The notes under the pieces are model-generated. The model saw only the letters and a list, made by a program, of their open reading frames with translations, had not been told where the DNA came from and ran no database searches. A DNA stretch of 64,000 nucleotides from Candidatus Zixiibacteriota bacterium (GTDB lineage Bacteria > Zixibacteria > MSB-5A5 > GN15 > FEB-12): NCBI GenBank assembly GCA_029860345.1, contig JAOUBJ010000005.1, positions 124,001 through 188,000 of the forward strand. Reading direction: 5' to 3'. Made by a program: the position numbers and the translations under genes. Each line of letters opens with the position of its first letter. The stretch's first letter is position 1. Of this stretch, positions 11,965 to 24,345 are shown one piece after another.

Positions 11965-13473
11965 CTACCTGGGGATCACGCCCGCGGCCGATGGGATATC
12001 GGAGACAAATTGAAGAATCGGCTCAGCATAGATACCGAAAAGTACAACACCAATCAATCCAATGGCTATGACTGCCACGGCCGGTGCATCAGGCTTGAGG
12101 CTATAAGGGGAGGCGGCGTTTGAGAAATACATCTGCTTGATAACATTGGCATAGTAGTACAACGAAAACACAGCCGTAATCAAACCGACACCGGCCACCC
12201 AGTACAACCAGGAGTGAAGTTCGTTGTGCGAAGCTAAAGACACAGCAGCTGCAAACACCTTGTACTTGGCCAAGAAACCGGCCAGCGGCGGGATGCCGGC
12301 CAGCGACAACATAAACACGGCCATGGCCGCCGCAATTCCCGGCGAAGACTGTGACAAACCACGGTAGGTTCCCAACTGGCACGATCCCGTCCGGTCTTCG
12401 ACCACGGCCACGATGGCAAAGGCACCCATGTTGGCAAACATGTAGGCAAACATATAGAAGCTGACGGCTTCGAGGCCCCATTCGTTGACGGCGACCATAC
12501 CGATCATCATATAGCCGGCCTGGGCAATTGACGAGTACGCCAACATGCGTTTGATGTTGGTCTGCCTGATAGCCACCACGTTGCCGTAGATCATGGCGGC
12601 ACAGGCCAGAATTCCGACCAGGTAGCCCCAATCGTTGGGGGCCATCTCACGTCCCCAAAAGGCCCAGAGACCGTTGACGAAGATTTTCGAAAACGCAACC
12701 AAACCCGCCGCTTTTGAGCCGACCGATAAGAAAGCGGCAATCGGGGTCGGGGAGCCTTCATATACATCCGGCGCCCATTGATGGAACGGCGGCAAGGCCA
12801 ACTTGAAACCCAGTCCGGCGATGATGATGATCAAGGCCACCATCGGAACCACCCCGATAGATCCATGCGCGATGAACATGGCCGCCAGGTTCATCTTCAT
12901 CGGCACGATTTCAGTCGTGGCCGACATACCGTAGAGGAACGAAAGACCATAGAGCAACAAGGCCGACGAAAAAGCGCCAAAGACAAAGTACTTGATACCG
13001 GCCTCAACGGATAGCTTGTCGTCCTTGTAAAAGGCGGCCAGGATAAACAACGGAATGGTCGTAAGTTCCAATCCGATCCACAGCGACAACAATTCCTGCG
13101 ACGAAGCAAGGAACATCATCCCAACCGTCGACATCAGAATCAACCCGAAGTACTCGCCTCTGTGGTTTACGATTCGTTGTCGGGTGATGCTAAACGAACT
13201 GCCGACGGCCATAAAGGCGGCGCCCAGAAAAATGACTTTGAAAAAGAGAGCCATCGGTTCATTGAAGAACATCCTCCCAAAGCCACGGCCGTAGCCGGTG
13301 ACCGACAGCAGGCCGCCGCAGATTAGGAGTCCGGCCAGTGTCAGATAGCCGACGGCATCACCTTTTTTTCGTCCTGTGATCAGGTCGAAGAGGATGACTA
13401 CCAGGGACCAGAGAAACAGAAATATCTCCGGCAGCATCAGACGCAGACTGTAATCGGGTAGCTCGAATTCCAT
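11965..13473 (-). CDS. nuoN: NADH-quinone oxidoreductase subunit N
   Basis: A 502-residue antiporter-like membrane subunit of respiratory complex I, one of three proton-pumping subunits (N, M, L). About 14 helices are visible, with the conserved stretches ELTTIPLFIL, GFKLALPPFHQW and MLAYSSIAQAGYMMIG, the last two carrying the lysine and surroundings typical of NuoN. It is the last gene of the operon, 4 nt after nuoM. No intrinsic terminator was found behind it, and the gap to the DUF502 gene also holds that gene's promoter. Confidence 0.95.
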   Translation of the reverse strand: MEFELPDYSLRLMLPEIFLFLWSLVVILFDLITGRKKGDAVGYLTLAGLLICGGLLSVTGYGRGFGRMFFNEPMALFFKVIFLGAAFMAVGSSFSITRQRIVNHRGEYFGLILMSTVGMMFLASSQELLSLWIGLELTTIPLFILAAFYKDDKLSVEAGIKYFVFGAFSSALLLYGLSFLYGMSATTEIVPMKMNLAAMFIAHGSIGVVPMVALIIIIAGLGFKLALPPFHQWAPDVYEGSPTPIAAFLSVGSKAAGLVAFSKIFVNGLWAFWGREMAPNDWGYLVGILACAAMIYGNVVAIRQTNIKRMLAYSSIAQAGYMMIGMVAVNEWGLEAVSFYMFAYMFANMGAFAIVAVVEDRTGSCQLGTYRGLSQSSPGIAAAMAVFMLSLAGIPPLAGFLAKYKVFAAAVSLASHNELHSWLYWVAGVGLITAVFSLYYYANVIKQMYFSNAASPYSLKPDAPAVAVIAIGLIGVVLFGIYAEPILQFVSDIPSAAGVIPR

Positions 13474-13477
13474 TTTG

Positions 13478-14968
13478 TTACCGCGCCATCAAAGTTATCA
13501 GATTCTCCAGAGTCGCGTTCATCAATAGACTCAGCGGCTTCGGATAGATGCCGACGAACAATGTCAACAACATCAACGGAACCACCGTCACCAACTCGCG
13601 AATGTTGATTTCTTTCAGGCCGCCCCACTTGGCCAGATCAAACTCACCGAGGAATACATTCTGCACCATCCTCAGCATGTAGGCGGCGCCCAGGACTACG
13701 CCCAACACCGAGATGCCGACCAGCACTTTGTTCAAGGCCGAGAAAGCGCCGACAAAAATCATGAACTCACTTATGAACCCGCTCATGCCCGGCAAACCGA
13801 GGGCAGCCATCGAGAAGAACACCATAATGCCGGAGTAAATCGGAAGTTTGGCGCCGAGTCCGCCAAAGGCTGCTATTTCGCGGGTGTGGGCGCGGTCATA
13901 GATGACTCCGACCAATAGGAATAATGCGCCGGTGATCAAACCGTGCGAGATCATCTGAAACATGCATCCGGCGATGGCCGTCACCGATGAAACAGCAGCC
14001 AGTGCGAGCATGCAATAACCCATGTGGGACACCGATGAATAGGCCACCAGCTTTTTGAGGTCCTTTTGCGCCATTGACACCAAGGCGCCGTAGATTATCG
14101 CAATGACGCCGAGCAGGGCTATCCAGAACGACAGCGTGCGCAGCGCTTCGGGGAACATCGGCCAACTGATTCGCAGCATGGCATAAGTTCCCATCTTCAA
14201 CAAGACACCGGCCAGGATTACCGATACTGCCGTGGGTGCCTCCACGTGTGCATCAGGTAGCCAGGTGTGGAACGGCCATACAGGTACCTTGATTGCGAAG
14301 GCTATGAAGAAGAAGATGAAGCAGACCATCTGCAAAGTGTGCGACAGCGCCGGGCTGGTTTCCAGCAGGGTCATCATGTTGAGCGTGTGCGGTTCCGACG
14401 TGAAGTACAGAATCAGAATCGATATCAACATGAAGATGGAGCCAAACAACGTATACAAGAAGAACTTGATCGCTGCGTACTCTTTGCGTGGTCCCCCCCA
14501 GACGCCGATCAGGAAATACATCGGCACCAGCATGATCTCCCAGAACACATAGAAGAGAAAAAAGTCAAGGGCTACAAACACGCCCATCATGCCGGCTTCC
14601 AGAAGGAGGAAGAAGGCAAAGTATTCTTTGACGCGGTTGGTAATGCCGAACGATGCAATCAACGAAATCGTGCTCAACAGTCCGGTCAGGAACAACATCG
14701 GCACCGAGATGCCGTCGACGCCCAGAAAGTACTGGATGTTCAGGCTCGGTATCCAGCTGTACGGTCCCTCCTGGTAGGCCATGGCCGCCGAACCGGAAAA
14801 GTTGACGAAGTAGTCCCAAGTGAGCCAAAAAGAGAGGAACATGGGAATCAGGCTGATGATGGTCGCCGTCCAACGAATGCTCTTGTGGTTTTCTTTTGGG
14901 AGCAGCATCACCACCACCGTCCCGACAATGGGAACGAATATCAATGAACTCAGATACGGGATTTCCAT
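13478..14968 (-). CDS. nuoM: NADH-quinone oxidoreductase subunit M
   Basis: A 496-residue antiporter-like membrane subunit of complex I. Landmarks: FFLFYVFWEIMLVPMYFLIG with the essential glutamate, KVPVWPFHTWLPDAHVEAPT, and LKKLVAYSSVSHMGY. The length is normal for NuoM. It starts 22 nt after the nuoL stop, and nuoN follows after 4 nt. Confidence 0.96.
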   Translation of the reverse strand: MEIPYLSSLIFVPIVGTVVVMLLPKENHKSIRWTATIISLIPMFLSFWLTWDYFVNFSGSAAMAYQEGPYSWIPSLNIQYFLGVDGISVPMLFLTGLLSTISLIASFGITNRVKEYFAFFLLLEAGMMGVFVALDFFLFYVFWEIMLVPMYFLIGVWGGPRKEYAAIKFFLYTLFGSIFMLISILILYFTSEPHTLNMMTLLETSPALSHTLQMVCFIFFFIAFAIKVPVWPFHTWLPDAHVEAPTAVSVILAGVLLKMGTYAMLRISWPMFPEALRTLSFWIALLGVIAIIYGALVSMAQKDLKKLVAYSSVSHMGYCMLALAAVSSVTAIAGCMFQMISHGLITGALFLLVGVIYDRAHTREIAAFGGLGAKLPIYSGIMVFFSMAALGLPGMSGFISEFMIFVGAFSALNKVLVGISVLGVVLGAAYMLRMVQNVFLGEFDLAKWGGLKEINIRELVTVVPLMLLTLFVGIYPKPLSLLMNATLENLITLMAR

Positions 14969-14990
14969 AACTTTGATCTATCCTCCAAAC

Positions 14991-17084
14991 TCAGGCAGGT
15001 TCTTTCTCTTTTGTTTCGGCGGCCGATGCTTGCTGTCCGATCGATCTTGAGAGGGCGGCGAGGAAAATGATACCGACCGTCAAGAGGATTGACAATAGAG
15101 GCAACCCACCCTCTCTGTCCGGCGATCCCATTTCCAGCTTGACAAATGCCAGCAGAACGATCAGCAGCATCGCAAAGAACGTATAGAATTGGACGTGACC
15201 GGTCTGGAAAAACCTCAGGATGTCGGCTCCCTGACGGACAATCCATCCGGACCCGTTAACAGCGCCGTCAACGATCCATTTATCGAACCACATTTTGATA
15301 TCCGACCACACGATAGTAAACCGAGCCGCGCCATTGACCAGACCGTCGATTATACCGGCGTCAAAACGCCACATCAAACGACCAAAGGCCATTGTCGGTC
15401 GCAGAAGGATCAGTTCGTACAGTTCATCGAAGTAGTACTTGTTGTACAGCAACGTATGGAGCGGTTTGAATCTCTCGGCCAGGCTGTCTGCGCTGATTGA
15501 TTTCTTGTAGTAGACCAAGTAGGCCAGCCCGATACCCGAAGCCGCCACGATGGTCGAAACAACCATCAGAAGATAGTTTGCATGCGGATGGTATCCCTCA
15601 CCGTGCGACACGAACGACGCGAAACCATGCTTGATCCAGGGTATACCCACCCAACCGGCGAAGATTGACAGGAAGGCCAGGAAGACCAACGGGTAGGTCA
15701 TCACCTTTGGCGACTCGTGCGCATTGTCGAAACGTTCCTTATCGCGCGGCTCGCCGTAGAAGGTCAAGAAGCAAAGTCGGAACATGTAGAATGCAGTCAT
15801 GAATGCAATCAACAACGTGAAGACGAAGAAGATGGGATGGTGCGATGAGGCCGCCACAATTTCATCTTTGGACCAAAACCCGGAAAGCGGGAAGATCCCG
15901 GCTATCGATAACGATGCGATAATGAACGTCGGACCGGTGATCTTTAGTTTGCCGAGGAGACCACCCATCTTCTGGATATCATTGGTGTGCACGGCGTGAA
16001 TCACCGAACCGGCGCCTAAGAACAAAAGTCCCTTGAAGAATGCATGCGTCATCAGGTGGAAAGTGCCGGCGTAGAATCCCGGTGAATGTTCCCCCACCGC
16101 GGTGTCGTAACCATAGAGACCGAGCGCCATTATCATGTAACCCAACTGGCTACAGGTTGAATAGGCGAGCACTCGCTTGATATCGTTTTGTACCAAGGCG
16201 ATTGACCCGGCCATAAATGAAGTTACCAATCCGATGACGGCCACTACCATTGACGCTTCCGCCGAACCTACAAACACACTCATCGAACGGGCCACCAAGT
16301 AGACCCCGGCTGCGACCATGGTGGCGGCATGAATCAGCGCCGAGACCGGCGTGGGTCCTTCCATGGCGTCCGGCAACCAGACATGCAGAGGAAACTGCGC
16401 CGATTTTCCGACGGCGCCGCAGAATATAAAGATGGCAGCGGCTGTCAGAATGCCGGTTGGAATCATGCCGGCTGCCACACTGTCGAAGACCTCACCATAG
16501 TTGAAAGTCCCGGCATAAACGGCAAGTAGAAAAAGTCCTACCAAAAAGCCGAGATCGCCCACCCGAGTTGTAAGAAACGCTTTTTTGCAGGCGTTGGCCG
16601 CTGATGCTTTCTCAAACCAAAAGCCGATCAGCAAATAACTTGTCAAGCCGACCAACTCCCAGAAGATGAAGATCATGAAAAAGTTGTTGGCCAGAACCAG
16701 TCCCAACATCGAGAACAAAAAGAGTGACAAGTACGAGAAGAACCGGCTGAACCTGGGGTCGCCATGCATGTATCCGATGGAGTAAATCTGCACACAAGCG
16801 CCAACGGTGGTTACAACCACCAACATCACGGCCGCCAGCGGGTCGATGAGGATACCTATCTCCGGTGCGAAACGGGTGAACTCGACAAACTTGTAAAACA
16901 TTTCGTAGGCTTGGCCGTGCGCCGACAGTTGCTCGATAAGGACCATAACCGACATGGCCCAGGACGAGAGAATCGCGGCAATTGAAACACCTGCCGAGAG
17001 TTTCTCATTCCATCGCAAGAAGAAGACGATCAGAACGAAGGACAACAAGGGAAGCAGCGCGATCAGGTATGAATGTTCAGTCAT
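14991..17084 (-). CDS. nuoL: NADH-quinone oxidoreductase subunit L
   Basis: A 697-residue complex I subunit, the distal pump with the long lateral helix. Landmarks: FFMIFIFWELVGLTSYLLIG, GKSAQFPLHVWLPDAMEGPT, and DIKRVLAYSTCSQLGYMIMA. Beyond the antiporter core, the C-terminal part carries the amphipathic helix and a final membrane anchor near residues 640-690, as expected for full-length NuoL. It lies 10 nt after nuoK. Confidence 0.96.
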   Translation of the reverse strand: MTEHSYLIALLPLLSFVLIVFFLRWNEKLSAGVSIAAILSSWAMSVMVLIEQLSAHGQAYEMFYKFVEFTRFAPEIGILIDPLAAVMLVVVTTVGACVQIYSIGYMHGDPRFSRFFSYLSLFLFSMLGLVLANNFFMIFIFWELVGLTSYLLIGFWFEKASAANACKKAFLTTRVGDLGFLVGLFLLAVYAGTFNYGEVFDSVAAGMIPTGILTAAAIFIFCGAVGKSAQFPLHVWLPDAMEGPTPVSALIHAATMVAAGVYLVARSMSVFVGSAEASMVVAVIGLVTSFMAGSIALVQNDIKRVLAYSTCSQLGYMIMALGLYGYDTAVGEHSPGFYAGTFHLMTHAFFKGLLFLGAGSVIHAVHTNDIQKMGGLLGKLKITGPTFIIASLSIAGIFPLSGFWSKDEIVAASSHHPIFFVFTLLIAFMTAFYMFRLCFLTFYGEPRDKERFDNAHESPKVMTYPLVFLAFLSIFAGWVGIPWIKHGFASFVSHGEGYHPHANYLLMVVSTIVAASGIGLAYLVYYKKSISADSLAERFKPLHTLLYNKYYFDELYELILLRPTMAFGRLMWRFDAGIIDGLVNGAARFTIVWSDIKMWFDKWIVDGAVNGSGWIVRQGADILRFFQTGHVQFYTFFAMLLIVLLAFVKLEMGSPDREGGLPLLSILLTVGIIFLAALSRSIGQQASAAETKEKEPA

Positions 17085-17094
17085 GCTTGTTATC

Positions 17095-17394
17095 CTACCA
17101 CTTCATCACATTAAGGTTGTCCATACCAATTCCACGCCAGTTGCGATAGATCAGAAGCACGATAGCCAGACCGACTACGGCTTCAGCCGCCGCGACGACA
17201 ACGATGAACAATGCGAACATCTGCCCGACCAGCGCATCCGTTGCAACAAACTTGTTAAAAGCGACAAAATTGATGTTGGCGGCGTTGAACATCAGCTCGA
17301 GCGACATCAAAATGCCGATAACGTTTCTGCGTGTCAGAACGCCGAACAATCCGATGGCGAAAAGAACCGCCGCCAATGCCAGATAGTAAAACAT
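17095..17394 (-). CDS. nuoK: NADH-quinone oxidoreductase subunit K
   Basis: A 99-residue membrane subunit of complex I with three helices. The conserved glutamates lie in the second and third helices (SLELMFNAANINFVAF and VAAAEAVVGLAIV). Its ATG shares one base with the nuoJ stop (TGATG), so translation is probably coupled. Confidence 0.95.
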   Translation of the reverse strand: MFYYLALAAVLFAIGLFGVLTRRNVIGILMSLELMFNAANINFVAFNKFVATDALVGQMFALFIVVVAAAEAVVGLAIVLLIYRNWRGIGMDNLNVMKW

Positions 17395-17900
17395 CAGGAG
17401 CGCTCCTTCCTGGCCAGGACAATGGCGCCGATCAAGGCAGCCAACAAGAGCACCGACACTACTTCAAACGGCAACATGAAGTCGGTCATCAGATATTTGC
17501 CGATACTACCGACGTTGTCGGCGATCAAGTCTCCCTTGGCGGGCGGCCACACTCCCGTCTCCTTGATGAGATAGGGGGCGCCGATGGCAAAGAGGCTGCA
17601 TACGACAAAGGCGATGGTGCCGTTTTGGTTGTGTTGGAGTGTTTTGCTCGACCCCAGATCGGTGGTCAACATGACCGTGAACACAATCAGTATGGCCACT
17701 GCTCCCACATAGATCAACACCTGCGCTGCGGCCAGGAATTCTGCGCCCAACAGAATATAGATTCCTGCAACCGCCGACAAACAGAGAATCAGGCAGAGCG
17801 CGCAGTGGAAGATATTTCTAAGGGTCACCACAAGCAGGCCGGAGACCAGGATCACCAAGGCGAGAATCCAGAAGACGATGCCGGGCTCAAGAAGTTCCAT
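17394..17900 (-). CDS. nuoJ: NADH-quinone oxidoreductase subunit J
   Basis: A 168-residue membrane subunit of complex I with five predicted helices. The third region, EFLAAAQVLIYVGAVAILIVF, is the conserved NuoJ helix that takes part in the E-channel. It begins inside the end of nuoI (14-nt overlap). Confidence 0.94.
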   Translation of the reverse strand: MELLEPGIVFWILALVILVSGLLVVTLRNIFHCALCLILCLSAVAGIYILLGAEFLAAAQVLIYVGAVAILIVFTVMLTTDLGSSKTLQHNQNGTIAFVVCSLFAIGAPYLIKETGVWPPAKGDLIADNVGSIGKYLMTDFMLPFEVVSVLLLAALIGAIVLARKERS

Positions 17901-18651
17901 CGGTTTGACCTCCCTGTTCTTTGTCTTCGTTTCCGGGAGCGGGATTTTTCGCGACCGTCGGCTTGGTCACCTCGGGCGGATCAGCCGGGAGATCCGGATC
18001 GGCGACGACCGGTGGTTCCTTGACAGCCTCCGGTGATGTTGTGGTATCCTTTCCATCAGCCTCAGGTACAGGCGTTGCCGTCTGTTTTTCTTGCGTACCG
18101 GCTGCCGGTTTTGCGCTATCCGTTGGTGGATCGTTCTTGGCCGGCGCTGTACTATCATTGGTGGTCTTGGTTTCGGCCGGTTTGTCCGGCTTTGGCTTTT
18201 TCTTCTTGCGAGTGTCGACATAGTCAACGTCGCGGCCCACCTGTTGAAGTTTGTCCACATCCCAGATGAGTTCGTCCTTGCCAAGCGTGGAAAACTCATA
18301 CTTGGTCGCCATCTTGAGAGCGCTGAAGTTGCACGCTTCCTCACACAGTCCGCAGAAGCAACAAAGACCGTTATCGACGACAAATTCGTCGAGCACCTTT
18401 TTCTTATTCTCATCACGATGGGCAACGATTTTGATGGCGGCCGTGGGGCAGGCTCGCATGCACAGTTCGCAGGACGTACAGTTGAGTTCGCCGGTTTCCT
18501 TGTCGGACAGCAGAACCACGATGCCGCGCGAACGTTCGGGCATATCCATACGCTCTTCGGGATACTGAATAGTGATCGCATGGCGGCCCAAATGTTTACC
18601 AGCTATGCCGAGGCCTTTGAGCAGGTTTCTGATATGGTCAAGTATACGCAT
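17887..18651 (-). CDS. nuoI: NADH-quinone oxidoreductase subunit I with a long Pro/Thr/Lys-rich tail
   Basis: NuoI carries clusters N6a and N6b, which pass electrons toward NuoB. Two ferredoxin motifs are present: CTSCELCMRACP (about 58-69) and CCFCGLCEEACN (about 97-108). The second lacks the usual proline after its last cysteine. From about residue 147 the protein runs into a hydrophilic tail of roughly 105 residues made mainly of Pro, Lys, Thr, Ala and Asp. This takes it to 254 residues, against the usual 160-180. The tail keeps the reading frame and overlaps the start of nuoJ. It has no cysteines and no domain I recognise. The gene lies 6 nt after nuoH. Confidence 0.93.
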   Translation of the reverse strand: MRILDHIRNLLKGLGIAGKHLGRHAITIQYPEERMDMPERSRGIVVLLSDKETGELNCTSCELCMRACPTAAIKIVAHRDENKKKVLDEFVVDNGLCCFCGLCEEACNFSALKMATKYEFSTLGKDELIWDVDKLQQVGRDVDYVDTRKKKKPKPDKPAETKTTNDSTAPAKNDPPTDSAKPAAGTQEKQTATPVPEADGKDTTTSPEAVKEPPVVADPDLPADPPEVTKPTVAKNPAPGNEDKEQGGQTDGTS

Positions 18652-18657
18652 ACCGTC

Positions 18658-19725
18658 CTACTCCCAGTAGAGCCCGTAGTGTTTCAGGATTGCGGCCAGG
18701 ATCAGATTGGCGAACGTTACCGGTACCAGGAATTTCCAGGCGAACTCCATCAACTGATCGACGCGCAACCTTGGATAGGTCCATCGCACCAGCATCAGGA
18801 AAAAGACCATGAGCAGCGTCTTGCCCAGGAACCACACCCACGAAGGCAACCAGGGACCGTTCCAACCGCCGAGAAATACAGTTGCGGCGATTGCAGACAC
18901 CGTGAACATATTTACAAATTCGGCCAGGAAGAACATGGCGAACTTCATACCTGAGTATTCGATATTGTACCCGGCCACCAATTCCTGTTCGGCTTCTGGA
19001 ATATCAAACGGCGTGCGGTTGGCTTCGGCGATGGCGGCGATTGTATAGGTTACAAAAGCAATTGGTCCGAAGGGCACACGGAAGATGAACCAGTTGAACC
19101 AGCCGGATTGCGCTTCGACAATGTCAACCATCGACAAAGAACCGGTGTAGAGAATAACGGCCAGCAGAGATACTACCATAGGCACCTCGTAGCTGACCAC
19201 CTGAGCGGCCGAGCGCATCCCGCCCAGCAGGGCATATTTGTTGTTGGAACCCCAGCCAGCCATCAAGAGCGAGATGACGGTGAACGTCGTTACGGCCATG
19301 ATGTACAGAATGCCGATATTGAGATCGGCCACGATCAAGCCACGACCGAACGGCATTGCAACATAGGCCAAAAAGGCGGCCACAAAACAGACGATAGGCG
19401 CCCAAAAGAATACGATCTTGTCACGTGTCTCGATTCTGATGTCTTCTTTTTGCAGTAGTTTAAGCGCATCCATAACCGTCTGGTACCAACCATGCCAACC
19501 TACGCGCATAGGACCGAAACGCTGTTGGATGTGGGCTGCTATCTTTCGTTCCCACCAAACCAGGAACAGGGCGAACAATGACAGCACACTGAACACCGTC
19601 ACGCCGAGTGCGCCGTACATGACGATGTTTTGCAGCGGCTCGGGCAGACCGATTGAGACCAATAGCTCGTGTAGCCATTTGAAAACGCCGTGGAGTTCAC
19701 CGATAGCAATAACCGGAGGGTTCAT
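18658..19725 (-). CDS. nuoH: NADH-quinone oxidoreductase subunit H
   Basis: A 355-residue membrane subunit at the quinone-binding joint of complex I. Landmarks are WWERKIAAHIQQRFGPMRVG near the first loop, the helix GWGSNNKYALLGGMRSAAQ with conserved acidic surroundings, and AEANRTPFDIPEAEQELVAG. Its start overlaps the nuoD stop by 4 nt. Confidence 0.96.
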   Translation of the reverse strand: MNPPVIAIGELHGVFKWLHELLVSIGLPEPLQNIVMYGALGVTVFSVLSLFALFLVWWERKIAAHIQQRFGPMRVGWHGWYQTVMDALKLLQKEDIRIETRDKIVFFWAPIVCFVAAFLAYVAMPFGRGLIVADLNIGILYIMAVTTFTVISLLMAGWGSNNKYALLGGMRSAAQVVSYEVPMVVSLLAVILYTGSLSMVDIVEAQSGWFNWFIFRVPFGPIAFVTYTIAAIAEANRTPFDIPEAEQELVAGYNIEYSGMKFAMFFLAEFVNMFTVSAIAATVFLGGWNGPWLPSWVWFLGKTLLMVFFLMLVRWTYPRLRVDQLMEFAWKFLVPVTFANLILAAILKHYGLYWE

Positions 19726-20825
19726 CGATCAACCTCGGGCATGATAATGTCAAGGGTGGCAAATATGGTCACCAAGTCGGCAATCAATACATCGGTGGCA
19801 ATCTCCGGCACCAGTCTGAGATGATTATATGAGCTGCCGCGCAGTTTGACCCGCACCGGTTTGGTGCTGCCGTCGGAGCGAATGTATACCCCCATCTCAC
19901 CGCGCGCACTTTCGATACGCGAGTAGACCTCGCCTGCCGGCGGTTTGAACTTCGGTTTGACTTTGCACTTGATGTCGCCTTCGGGCAGATTGTCCAGCGC
20001 CTGTTCGATGATTCTCAAAGACGCTTTCATCTCATCGATGCGTTGAATAAACCGGTCGTAGGAGTCGCCGTTTTTCTGAGTAGGTATCTCAAAATTAAAT
20101 TTGTCATAGATCGAGTAAGGGTCGTCGCGTCGGACATCGTAATCGACACCCGAAGCGCGCAGTACCGGCCCTGATGCACCGAAGGCAATGGCCTTCTCAG
20201 CCGTGAGTACGCCGATCCCTTTGGTGCGCACCAGCCAGATCGGATTTTCGTTCAAGAGTCCTTCATAGTCGGCGAACTTGCCCCACAGTTTATCCATAAA
20301 CTCCCGACACTTGGGCACGAACTCGTCCGGGATATCCTGCGACACACCGCCGATGCGAATGTAGTTGTAGGTCAGGCGCTGTCCGCAAGTCATCTCGAAC
20401 AAGTCGATAATATCTTCGCGTTCACGCAGGCCGTAGAGAAACGGCGTATAGGCGCCGACATCCATGGCCGTCACGCCCCAGAAAATCAGGTGTGAGGCAA
20501 TGCGGTTCAGCTCTACCATGATGACCCGCAGATACTCGGCCCGTTCGGGCACTTCCAATCCGGCCAGTTTTTCCACGGCCAGGGCGTAGACATGATCCGA
20601 GGCCATGGCCGTGACATACTCGAACCGATCCATCATGGGCGAACACTGCGGATAGGTGCGGTTTTCACAAATCTTCTCTATGGCCCGGTGAAGATAGCCG
20701 ATTACCGGCTCGATATGCACTACCTTTTCACCATCCATGGTCAACACCAGGCGACAGACGCCGTGCGTTGAGGGATGGTGCGGCCCCATATTAACCAGGA
20801 ATTCTTCGGTTCGCAGCTTGGCCAT
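19722..20825 (-). CDS. nuoD: NADH-quinone oxidoreductase subunit D (49-kDa homologue)
   Basis: A 367-residue soluble subunit that forms the quinone site together with NuoB. It opens with VNMGPHHPSTHGVCRLVL, the conserved HxxxH quinone-site loop, and contains YLHRAIEKICENRTYPQ and IESARGEMGVYI. It ends with the conserved LRLVPEIATDVLIADLVTIF, then LDIIMPEVDR. Its ATG overlaps the nuoC stop by one base (TAATG). Confidence 0.97.
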   Translation of the reverse strand: MAKLRTEEFLVNMGPHHPSTHGVCRLVLTMDGEKVVHIEPVIGYLHRAIEKICENRTYPQCSPMMDRFEYVTAMASDHVYALAVEKLAGLEVPERAEYLRVIMVELNRIASHLIFWGVTAMDVGAYTPFLYGLREREDIIDLFEMTCGQRLTYNYIRIGGVSQDIPDEFVPKCREFMDKLWGKFADYEGLLNENPIWLVRTKGIGVLTAEKAIAFGASGPVLRASGVDYDVRRDDPYSIYDKFNFEIPTQKNGDSYDRFIQRIDEMKASLRIIEQALDNLPEGDIKCKVKPKFKPPAGEVYSRIESARGEMGVYIRSDGSTKPVRVKLRGSSYNHLRLVPEIATDVLIADLVTIFATLDIIMPEVDR

Positions 20826-21304
20826 TACAGCTGTGGCATCCTTATGAAGTCGGGTGCATCCCAGTCTTTGCGCATGGGGTAACCCTGGTCCCAGTCGTCC
20901 GGCAACAGGAATCGGTTCAAGTCGCCGTGGTTGGCAATGTCGATCCCGAACAGCTCCCAGATTTCACGCTCGTGCCATTCGGCAGCCGGCCAAACTTCTT
21001 TGGTGGACTCGATCACCGCCTGATCGTATGGGAGCGCGACCTTGAAGTCGAGGCGCAGGCTGAACGTGATGGAAGACAAAGAATAGACGACCTCAAACCG
21101 TTCGCCGGTGTCGACACCTGAGATGTTGTTCAAAAAATCGAACTTGAGGTTTTCGTGGTCGCGAAGCATCAGCGCGACTTTCATAAGGTCGCTCGGCTTC
21201 ACATCGAACATCAGATCGAAGACACCACTCTCTGAAGGGGTCATCGTTCCCTGGCTGAGCTTGAGTATCTTCTCTTTGAGTTCGTCTTTATTCATGTCGG
21301 TCAT
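20825..21304 (-). CDS. nuoC: NADH-quinone oxidoreductase subunit C (30-kDa homologue)
   Basis: A 159-residue soluble subunit of complex I. The family signature EREIWELFGIDIANH is present, followed by RFLLPDDWDQGYPMRKD. The open frame runs much further upstream, through nuoB. The ATG at 21304 (MTDMNKDEL) or the one at 21295 fits the family length and lies just after the nuoB stop; an AGG stretch precedes both. It is a separate protein and is not fused to NuoD. Confidence 0.93.
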   Translation of the reverse strand: MTDMNKDELKEKILKLSQGTMTPSESGVFDLMFDVKPSDLMKVALMLRDHENLKFDFLNNISGVDTGERFEVVYSLSSITFSLRLDFKVALPYDQAVIESTKEVWPAAEWHEREIWELFGIDIANHGDLNRFLLPDDWDQGYPMRKDWDAPDFIRMPQL

Positions 21305-21314
21305 GCCTGTCGTG

Positions 21315-21827
21315 CTATTTTTCGTGCCAGTCAGCAAGCTTCTGCGACTTGATTTTCTTTTGGAGATGAAGGCAACCTTCCAAAAGCGACTCCGGTCGTG
21401 GCGGACATCCGGGTATATAAATATCGACCGGGACAATATGGTCGATCCCCTTCTCGACGGCATAGCTGTCATAGTAAAACGGTCCGCCCTTGATGGTGCA
21501 TCCTCCCATGGCGATCACGTAGCGCGGCTCAGCCATTTGGTCATACAGTCGACGCAAGCGTGGCGCCATCTTTTTGGTAATTGTACCGGCGGCAATAATC
21601 AGATCGGCCTGCCGGGGCGTGGGGCGGAAGATCATGCCGAGTCGATCAAAGTCATAGCGTGAGGCGCCGGTGCACATAAGTTCGATAGCACAGCAAGCGG
21701 TCGCGAACAGAAGATACCACATGGAACAAGCCTGCGAATGGCTGAGAATGGATTCAAGCTGCGTGGCGACAATCCCGCCACCTGGAATTTGTTCAGCATA
21801 TACCGGAACTTTTTTGATCAGACCCAT
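21315..21827 (-). CDS. nuoB: NADH-quinone oxidoreductase subunit B (N2 cluster)
   Basis: A 170-residue soluble subunit carrying cluster N2, the last iron-sulfur centre before quinone. The four cysteine ligands are visible: the CC pair in ATACCAIELM, one in MGGCTIKGGP and one in IPGCPPRPE. It overlaps the end of nuoA by 10 nt. Confidence 0.97.
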   Translation of the reverse strand: MGLIKKVPVYAEQIPGGGIVATQLESILSHSQACSMWYLLFATACCAIELMCTGASRYDFDRLGMIFRPTPRQADLIIAAGTITKKMAPRLRRLYDQMAEPRYVIAMGGCTIKGGPFYYDSYAVEKGIDHIVPVDIYIPGCPPRPESLLEGCLHLQKKIKSQKLADWHEK

Positions 21828-22171
21828 TTGAGGGCTCCCTTTTTCCAGGCGTAGACGAGTCCGAAGAACAATATCAAAATGAAGATCACCATTTCAACCA
21901 GGGCGTAGAGGCCGAGTTGGCCGTATGCTACCGCCCACGGAAACAGGAAGACCGCCTCGACGTCGAAGATGACAAAGATCAGCGCGAAGATATAGTAGCG
22001 ATTGTGAAACTTGATCCAGGAATTACCGATGGGCAACTCGGCGCATTCGTAGTTGACGTTTTTCTCGGGGTATGGATTATGCGGCCTGAGAAGACGGGCC
22101 AAGAAGAACGTAAACAGCACCATCCCGGCGCCAACACAGATGAAAATCAAGACCGCCAGGTACTCGGACAT
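21818..22171 (-). CDS. nuoA: NADH-quinone oxidoreductase subunit A
   Basis: A 117-residue membrane subunit of complex I with three helices. It has the family loop NYECAELPIGNSWIKFHNRY, with the conserved Cys-Glu pair, then FVIFDVEAVFLFPWA. It is the first gene of the 11-gene operon, with AGAGG about 11 nt before the ATG. nuoE, nuoF and nuoG, which form the NADH-oxidising arm, are absent from the operon and from the window. Confidence 0.95.
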   Translation of the reverse strand: MSEYLAVLIFICVGAGMVLFTFFLARLLRPHNPYPEKNVNYECAELPIGNSWIKFHNRYYIFALIFVIFDVEAVFLFPWAVAYGQLGLYALVEMVIFILILFFGLVYAWKKGALKWV

Positions 22172-22674: not shown

Positions 22675-24345
22675 TCACCAGGCCGACGGCGCCGGACCGC
22701 CCGTGAACATGTAATCCACTAAATAGATGAGGTCGGCTATATCGATCTGGGTGCCGCCGATACCGTCGACATTGGCTGTCTCCATTATCGAAGGTTCGGG
22801 ACCTCCCTGAAACATGTACTCGACAAGGTAGACCAAATCCGAGATGTCTACATGGCCGTCAGCGTTCAGGTCACCCGAAATGTGGCCCACGAAGACAAGC
22901 CGGCCAACTGCCGTGAACGGTGCACCGTCCAAATACTCACCTTCAACGGTGTAAGGCTGCACACTGATGTCCATCAGAGCTCCATAACCTTCAATGAACT
23001 CTCCGGCATGGAAGACTACTTCAAGGACATCGCCATCGAAAGCGGGAAGTGAAGGAATCACGGCTGCTGAAGTTGGAGAAACAGTGGCATTGATCGAAAG
23101 TGTCGCCGTATTAACATCAGAGGCGGTGTAGCCGGAATCGAAATTGCCCATATACGATGTCAGTTCCAAGGGAGTTACACTGTGCGCAAAGTAATAGTAC
23201 ATCGTATCAGGATCGGGCGCGGCTGCCGGTGTCGTCCCCCATTCGGTCAGATTGGACAGGATCGAAACATTTCCAGAGCCCCCATTTGCTACCGCCAGAT
23301 CGTTGTCATTGTCGCCATCAAGGTCGGCCGAGAAGATCGCCACGGGACCGTTACCTGCCCCATAATCGCCGGCCGCTGCAAATGTTCCGTCACCATTGTT
23401 CAGCAGGATGGAGACATTGCCGGAGTTCGAATTTGCCAAAGCCAGGTCGTTATCACCATCTCCGTCAAGGTCGGCCGAGGATACAGACGAAGGCTCATTC
23501 CCTGCTGCATAACCGGCCGCGGCGGCAAATGTCCCGTCACCGTTGTTCAAAAGGACTGAGACACTATTAGAAGACTGATTGGCCACCGCCAGATCGTTGT
23601 CGGTATCGCCGTCCAAGTCGGCTGAGAAGACCGACCAGGGCGCTGTCCCGACAGCATAGTTGACCCGTGTAGCGAAGGTCCCGTCGCCATTGTTCAGCAA
23701 GATAGAAACGTTGTTGGCAAGCCGGTTGGCCACGGCCAGGTCGTTGTCGGTATCGCCGTCCAGGTCGGTTGCGAAAACTGACCAGGCGGCATTCCCGGCA
23801 GCATAGAATACCCGAGGAGCAAAGGTCCCATCGCCATTGTTCAGCAGGATAGAAACATTGTCGGACTGTCGATTCGCCACCACGATATCGTTGTCGGTAT
23901 CACCGTCAAAATCGGCTGAGAAAAGGGCGCGAGGCTTGCCTCCGGCGGTGTAATTGACCGCCGCCGCAAATGTCCCGTCGCCATTGTTAAGCAGGATTGA
24001 GACATTGTTGTTGTTGGCGTTCGTCACAGCCAGGTCGTTGTAGGTGTCTCCATCAAAGTCGATTGAGAAAACTCCGGACGGGAAAGCACCTGTTGCATGA
24101 TTGGCAGCCGTGGTAAAAATCCCAATACCGTTGTTCAGCAGAACAGTGACGTCACCGGAAACGCGATTGGCCAGGGCCAGGTCGTTATCATTATCCCCGT
24201 CAAAGTCAGCTGAGAACACGGCCCGGGGGCCACCTCCGACCCCATAATTGACCGCGGGATCAAACAGCGGATCAATGGACAAAACGGCTCCGACCAGAGC
24301 CAGGGTCAACAGTAGGGTCAGCAACAGGAGTGTTGGTTTTGACAT
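22675..24345 (-). CDS. Secreted FG-GAP/VCBS repeat protein with C-terminal dockerin-like tag
   Basis: A 556-residue exported protein (signal peptide about 1-23). Residues of about 28-375 are seven tandem repeats of about 49 residues with the pattern 'FSADLDGDTDNDLAVAN ... NVSILLNNGDGTF', the calcium-binding FG-GAP/VCBS blade, so a seven-bladed beta-propeller is likely. A beta-rich domain follows (about 380-490), and the protein ends in two EF-hand-like dockerin repeats (GDLNADGHVDISDLVYLVEY and QIDIADLIYLVDYMFTGG). Start: AGAGAGG lies 8-9 nt before the ATG at 24345. The protein probably acts at the cell surface or outside. No catalytic domain is seen, and the ligand is unknown. It stands alone between repeat-rich gaps. 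Confidence 0.88.
   Translation of the reverse strand: MSKPTLLLLTLLLTLALVGAVLSIDPLFDPAVNYGVGGGPRAVFSADFDGDNDNDLALANRVSGDVTVLLNNGIGIFTTAANHATGAFPSGVFSIDFDGDTYNDLAVTNANNNNVSILLNNGDGTFAAAVNYTAGGKPRALFSADFDGDTDNDIVVANRQSDNVSILLNNGDGTFAPRVFYAAGNAAWSVFATDLDGDTDNDLAVANRLANNVSILLNNGDGTFATRVNYAVGTAPWSVFSADLDGDTDNDLAVANQSSNSVSVLLNNGDGTFAAAAGYAAGNEPSSVSSADLDGDGDNDLALANSNSGNVSILLNNGDGTFAAAGDYGAGNGPVAIFSADLDGDNDNDLAVANGGSGNVSILSNLTEWGTTPAAAPDPDTMYYYFAHSVTPLELTSYMGNFDSGYTASDVNTATLSINATVSPTSAAVIPSLPAFDGDVLEVVFHAGEFIEGYGALMDISVQPYTVEGEYLDGAPFTAVGRLVFVGHISGDLNADGHVDISDLVYLVEYMFQGGPEPSIMETANVDGIGGTQIDIADLIYLVDYMFTGGPAPSAW
23245..24264 (-). repeat. Tandem coding repeat of about 147 bp, seven units
   Basis: The FG-GAP units are also similar as DNA. 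The phrase for NVSILLNNGDGTF recurs about every 147 bases (for example near 23387, 23534, 23681 and 23828) with few changes, which suggests recent duplication or repeat homogenisation. Confidence 0.7.

Follow-up and report, generated by a model that had tools for sequence, protein, structure and literature searches.

The window, which is the whole stretch of 64,000 nucleotides analysed here (contig C5, positions 124001-188000), comes from a 4.76 Mb genome in 35 contigs that is 99.3% complete. On its reverse strand lies an operon for an 11-subunit complex I, in which nuoD directly adjoins nuoH and, as judged from open reading frames (ORFs) and family profiles, nuoE, nuoF and nuoG are absent between them. 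The features of the operon are:

11965-22171, reverse strand: nuoA-B-C-D-H-I-J-K-L-M-N operon, 11 subunits (ORFs; Pfam and NCBIfam profiles for A, B, C, D, H, I and J, and Pfam profiles for K, L, M and N)
19944-19964, reverse strand: NuoD residues 288-294 (KVKPKFK), where cyanobacterial NdhH has Lys315 and Lys321, which contact ferredoxin
17887-18651, reverse strand: nuoI, 254 amino acids, in which a low-complexity tail comes after two 4Fe-4S motifs (translation, Pfam and NCBIfam)
18382-18420, reverse strand: inter-cluster hairpin of NuoI, residues 78-90 (HRDENKKKVLDEF), where cyanobacterial NdhI has its ferredoxin-contacting lysines
18328-18363, reverse strand: second Fe-S motif of NuoI, residues 97-108 (C97 C98 F C100 G L C103 E E A C107 N108)
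17890-18216, reverse strand: C-terminal tail of NuoI, residues 146-254, with a basic start (DTRKKKKPK), a P/T/A-rich middle and an acidic end
17887-17889, reverse strand: nuoI stop codon, inside nuoJ
17394-17900, reverse strand: nuoJ (ORF and Pfam), sharing 14 bp with the end of nuoI

The operon is flanked upstream by a gene for an FG-GAP protein, followed by MotB- and MotA-like genes, and downstream by genes for DUF502, PTS-EIIA/CBS and Na/Ca exchanger proteins (Pfam). The end of the FG-GAP repeat protein (22675-24345, upstream of nuoA) resembles a dockerin-type repeat by eye, the Pfam match being to FG-GAP only. Related NuoI proteins were found at 13 named loci, seven of them from Zixiibacteriota/Zixibacteria, two named 'bacterium', one from Ignavibacterium and three from other groups, of which two are Bacillota or Limnochordales. 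A plasmid database search matched 143 records, none covering 80% of the query, and a matching region that was inspected has no annotated features.

The 254-residue translation of nuoI contains no internal stop. Pfam matches stop at residue 110. TIGR01971, the best-scoring profile for NuoI, reaches residue 135 and is covered in full (1-121 of 121, E 6.3e-32), its score of 109.7 bits being just below the curated cut-off of 113.05. The cysteine ligands are invariant in an alignment of 14 sequences. Residues 146-254 are in frame and of low complexity, and these 109 residues include 19 P, 16 T, 15 K, 13 A, 12 D and 8 E, with one Leu, no Cys and no aromatic residue; a search for tandem repeats found none. 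The first-pass annotation, which had described a low-complexity tail of about 100 residues running in frame to the overlap with nuoJ, is borne out on this point. The low-complexity end exceeds chance expectation. When 371 ORFs, picked greedily from 524 kb of the source genome without gene curation and each at least 100 amino acids long, are compared, a C-terminal suffix of at least 40 amino acids with at most 10% order-promoting residues occurs in just two, NuoI (122 amino acids) and one other (56 amino acids). The AlphaFold model of NuoI has a mean pLDDT of 51.3, which is low in the folded core as well, and therefore says nothing about disorder of the tail. The composition of the tail, with few hydrophobic and almost no aromatic anchors, argues against ordered packing of the Escherichia coli type, and the tail is probably disordered.

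Three NuoF-type (51 kDa) domains are encoded in the source genome. One is within a complete nuoA-B-C-D-E-F-G-H-I-J-K-L-M-N series on contig C2 (nuoN identified by a 36% match), the second is in a 2-oxoacid oxidoreductase operon and the third is in a PduS-like protein whose gene neighbours that of a microcompartment shell protein. The absence of NuoEFG noted at first therefore holds for the complex encoded in the window but not for the cell. The NuoI of the 14-subunit complex on contig C2 has 170 amino acids and an end of a different kind.

Searches of 132 genomes of the phylum revealed a window-type NuoI in 97 (E<=1e-25). Reading of 94 orthologues (G054, G083 (split gene), G075 and the second copy in G076 being left out), with a tail counted if it had at least 20 residues, showed that 85 carry a tail of 22-123 residues (median 59). 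All 85 copies read in ten families are tailed, as is every orthologue read from the source's own order, so close relatives with the tail missing or altered by a frameshift were not seen. The nine tail-less orthologues end no more than three residues from the point at which the tail starts, and all belong to families f12, f13 and f14. Sequence and length of the tail are free among the orthologues but the charge layout is kept. No conserved segment after the basic start was seen in the orthologue alignments, nor any conserved linear motif in the tails. Pooled tails consist of 19% K, 16% P, 16% A, 14% E, 8% D and 8% T, with 5% order-promoting residues, one aromatic residue and no Cys across all tails. 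All 85 tails are net positive over their first 12 residues and 78/85 are net negative over their last 15, the acidic end failing in 7/85. This basic-to-acidic polarity beats within-tail shuffles (p<0.05) in 60 of the 85 tails, which come from related genomes and are not independent, and each of the ten tail-bearing families shows it in its mean.

Among the 16 closest pairs listed, 13 gave finite values of dN/dS, which were 0.10-0.54 for the tail and 0.01-0.10 for the core; some pairs are from a shared genome and some have a saturated dS (>1). No finite value reaches 1, so the tail evolves like a weakly constrained coding sequence. Of 80 tail-bearing loci in which the spacing could be measured, 78 have the stop codon of nuoI within -14 to +11 bp of the start of nuoJ. 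Low complexity and a position at the end of a gene would suit a sequencing error, a frameshift or a lost stop codon; the in-frame tail in 85/94 genomes, together with the dN/dS of the tail, rules this out and leaves it next to no probability. The tail is a genuine in-frame extension under coding constraint, carried by the NuoI of a second complex I that lacks the NADH module.

The sequence 3' of nuoI in f13 and f14 (five loci, three frames) contains no Lys/Pro/Glu-rich tail, which indicates that these NuoI really end there. At L119, L122 and L123 (f13, f14) the tail-less nuoI is separated from nuoJ by 218-357 bp, the distance at most other loci being near zero or an overlap. A tree was constructed from six concatenated subunits, for which 23 of 46 rows were kept and rows with at least 15% gaps were dropped, including the tail-less L115, L119 and L121 and all f2 rows. 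In this tree six tail-less rows from f12-f14 group together (support 0.995), as do 14 tail-bearing rows (0.983), and two Bacillota and the source's own 14-subunit complex fall outside both Zixibacteria groups. One gain of the tail, or one loss in f12-f14, explains the tree. Since the sampled tail-bearing members form one clade, the traits that they have in common count as one event. The gap-filtered tree replaced the first trees, which included partial loci and contained odd placements, with the tail-less L115 among tail-bearing rows.

Matches to nuoE, nuoF and nuoG were sought in 33 related loci, including the nine tail-less ones, and none was found. Both nuoD and nuoH are visible in 29 of the 33, and in 7/9 tail-less loci nuoD is followed by nuoH; the nuoD side was covered at a minority of the short tail-bearing loci. 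NuoG was matched in 117/132 genomes of the phylum (E<=1e-60), including 80/85 tailed and 7/9 tail-less genomes, which therefore probably encode a 14-subunit complex as well. The tail is absent from all 21 NuoI taken as 14-subunit, which are the source's own copy and 20 chosen second matches, 18 of the latter having a match to NuoG no more than a few kb away on their contig and those of G014 and G026 assigned to this type by likeness. A third type, with the order nuoA-B-C-D-H-I-J-K-L onward, is found at L211-L213 in G022, G038 and G041, three genomes from which the window-type complex is missing, with no nuoE, nuoF or nuoG match in the 10-kb stretches. Its NuoI core is about 31-36% identical to that of the window type, and the long C-terminal parts of the three look similar to one another but are neither K/P/A/E-rich nor of low complexity. 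L211-L213 represent a further 11-subunit complex without this tail.

In the Bacillota class of L067, 17 NuoI end 14-49 residues past the core with a different motif, in a comparison of 21 rows in which L179 and L180 repeat L067 and L065, and L066 and L196 differ again. Within the set from Limnochordales and other Bacillota (L065, L067 and L179-L195), the full 11-subunit order is seen in L065 and L067, and nuoD lies beside nuoH in most of the other loci. Some of these NuoI ends reach 49 residues and a few are P/A-rich; unlike the Zixibacteria tails, they start with a motif like N-Y/F-G-[IV]-K-T and are without the basic-to-acidic layout. Because f12-f14 and L211-L213 are without the tail and the Bacillota have other ends, the tail is no general substitute for NuoEFG. 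Complexes I without NuoEFG do not need it, and it does not mark them in general. A link between the tail and the absence of nuoEFG had been anticipated, and it holds in so far as none of the 21 14-subunit NuoI is tailed, but nine tail-less loci are equally without nuoE, nuoF and nuoG matches. The view of the tail as a consequence of the missing NuoEFG is weakened by these tail-less 11-subunit relatives.

The tail-bearing NuoI also differ in the second 4Fe-4S motif. A Cys-Pro pair at the last Cys of each 4Fe-4S motif is typical, although it is not a stated family rule. The window NuoI keeps Cys-Pro in motif 1, and motif 2 has Cys-Asn (N108) and the extra Cys98. The residue after the last Cys of motif 2 is Asn in 84/84 readable tail-bearing orthologues (motif 2 being unreadable in one further tail-bearing orthologue) and Pro in 9/9 tail-less ones, and the residue after the first Cys is Cys in 81/84 and Ile in 9/9, respectively. 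The second motif presumably provides, by comparison with Thermus Nqo9, three ligands to cluster N6a and one to N6b. The Asn and Cys changes may be a single clade-level event, and are no proof of a link with the tail.

The folded core of the complex bears on the electron donor. Cyanobacterial NDH-1L is likewise without NuoEFG, and in the available parts of two descriptions of it (PMC7021789, PMC6992706) the donor port combines a basic hairpin in the homologue of NuoI with lysines in that of NuoD, ferredoxin touching Lys86, Lys89 and Lys91 of NdhI and Lys315 and Lys321 of NdhH. NdhI 62-137 matches the window NuoI 57-131, and placement by the phmmer end points, with an uncertainty of one residue, puts Lys89 at K83 or K84 and Lys91 at K85 or V86. 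Lys86 falls on D80 or E81, neither of them a lysine, which counts against the docking reading. NdhH 313-394 matches the final 82 residues of NuoD at equal length, so the same kind of placement puts Lys315 at K288 and Lys321 at K294. Of 27 related NuoD that could be read here, 26 have K or R at position 288, among them 6/6 readable tail-less ones; the 14-subunit NuoD of the source genome has H there, and an insertion of 25 residues close by. Position 294 is K or R in all, but is not specific because the 14-subunit NuoD also has Lys there. The mean net charge of the NuoI hairpin is +1.2 (n=94), compared with -2.7 in the 14-subunit paralogues (n=21), and that of the tail-less NuoI is near neutral (-1 to +1). 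As the tail-less members keep the basic NuoD positions and a near-neutral hairpin, the port exists without the tail.

These features of the folded core support ferredoxin as the predicted donor, independently of the tail. For the proposed docking arm they count against a need for the tail, since the lysines that match the cyanobacterial contacts belong to the core whether or not a tail follows. The source genome encodes a ferredoxin-like protein of 62 amino acids with 15 acidic residues and one basic residue. Two further small ferredoxin-like proteins carry almost no net charge (-1 and -2), and there are five POR gamma domains. A motif scan of the window for ferredoxin-like ORFs returned only NuoI itself, as did a scan for C..C..C...C[PGA], a pattern that misses other ferredoxin types, in ORFs of at least 50 amino acids from 19 stretches.

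The 11-subunit complex of Desulfitobacterium hafniense (PMC11238625) is also encoded by nuoABCDHIJKLMN without NuoEFG, with ferredoxin among the candidate donors. Unlike that system, the source genome encodes a 14-subunit complex I in addition, and its 11-subunit NuoI has a long tail, the main text of PMC11238625 naming NuoI once and not using the word 'extension'. In Saganbacteria it has been suggested that a Nuo without NuoEFG could use ferredoxin (PMC6349859); the available parts of that paper and of PMC4436894 hold nothing bearing on a NuoI tail. Literature searches found no paper on an 11-subunit complex I in Zixibacteria, and no such NuoI tail is described in the titles or abstract openings among the matches listed. 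Cyanobacterial NDH-1 has NdhV, NdhO and NdhS around the port (PMC7021789, PMC6992706, in the parts available), while in Zixibacteria NuoI itself bears a charged tail.

The closest structural parallel is the C-terminal extension of E. coli NuoI (residues 139-180), which, as presented in the available part of PMC8357420, contacts NuoG (805 square angstroms), NuoE, NuoB, NuoF and NuoD and heads toward the electron-input side. Residue 135 of the window NuoI aligns with residue 137 of E. coli NuoI, so the extension starts at the equivalent place. The E. coli extension is ordered, has 42 residues and belongs to a 14-subunit complex, in contrast to the longer, K/P/A/E-rich tail of Zixibacteria with its few hydrophobic anchors. 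Because it exits NuoI where the E. coli extension does, the tail could reach the donor side. The first-pass annotation had proposed that the tail is a docking arm for a donor; its retention in relatives and its exit toward the donor side are consistent with this, but the existence of 11-subunit relatives without a tail counts against it.

We tentatively favour, as one possible reading, a probably disordered arm beside the ferredoxin port that perhaps tunes the docking of the donor. The donor would be an acidic ferredoxin in its reduced form, delivering electrons to cluster N6a; as in cyanobacterial NDH-1, it would dock on a basic surface to which the NuoI hairpin and NuoD both contribute. The Lys-rich root of the tail, near the Fe-S domain, would widen the basic docking basin, and the acidic tip would compete for the same basin, giving faster release or keeping other proteins off. 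The step from a ferredoxin-type port to tail-tuned docking is one that we infer, and perhaps holds; the fast evolution of the tail and its spread of 22-123 residues count against it. Such electrostatic tuning is placed barely ahead of a loosely constrained, lineage-specific extension without a role at the donor, serving solubility, as an entropic bristle or for spacing, which is similarly possible. A single gain that did little harm, with the 3' end fixed by the coupling to nuoJ, would explain the freedom of sequence and length, a dN/dS several-fold above that of the core, the tail-less sister clade with the same operon type and the narrow range of stop positions relative to nuoJ. It accounts less well for the polarity common to the ten family means, for the rarity of such ends in the genome, for dN/dS below 1 in every finite pair (with the shared genomes and saturated dS mentioned above) and for a tail in every copy read of the ten families.

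Both of these readings are placed ahead of an assembly or stability clamp, in which the tail would run along NuoB, NuoD or NuoC, or hold an extra subunit. The E. coli extension, which covers several subunits from the same starting point, provides the precedent, but it is ordered, and the scarcity of hydrophobic and aromatic anchors and of any conserved segment past the basic start of the Zixibacteria tail makes a clamp rather unlikely. Tethering of a protein other than ferredoxin, such as an oxidoreductase or hydrogenase, next to N6a would fit the proposal by Moparthi and Hagerhall, as told in the available part of PMC11238625, that 11-subunit complexes are a platform for several donors, and the genome does encode several redox complexes; as no linear motif that would give specificity was seen in the tails and no candidate partner emerged, we regard it as very improbable. 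The docking reading can also be extended to a disordered electrostatic gate, in which the Lys-rich root and acidic tip compete with ferredoxin for the basic basin at N6a, gained once together with the change from Cys-Pro to Cys-Asn and the extra Cys, and marking a distinct ferredoxin:quinone type of complex I that coexists with the normal one. In this full form it is distinctly unlikely.

Which protein feeds electrons to a complex I without the NADH module is presented as an open question in the available part of PMC11238625. Zixibacteria offer a natural comparison, with tailed and tail-less 11-subunit complexes in sister clades. Should docking of the donor indeed be tuned by the tail, the choice of donor could be tested directly, as the segment is short and simple to delete.

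Some further observations concern the NADH-type modules in these genomes. In most genomes of f15-f17 (e.g. G111, G113 and G119) the NuoG match is limited to the first 250-450 residues or so, exceptions being G116, in which the match differs from that pattern, and G122, which has no NuoG match; the NuoG of f15-f17 may be divergent. In f12 the NuoG match contains one in-frame TAA in both G100 (contig C156) and G101 (contig C26), which may lie outside the gene proper or be a break. In the source genome, a microcompartment shell gene adjoins a gene for a PduS/RnfC-like protein with a 51-kDa domain (L037, 8286-10163, contig C3). At L036 (5079-10613, contig C1, approximately 130079-135613), genes for the alpha, beta and gamma parts of a 2-oxoacid oxidoreductase (OFOR) are followed by NuoE-like, NuoF-like (618 amino acids) and Fer2/Fer4 genes, so that an OFOR is joined with an NADH-type module in one gene row.
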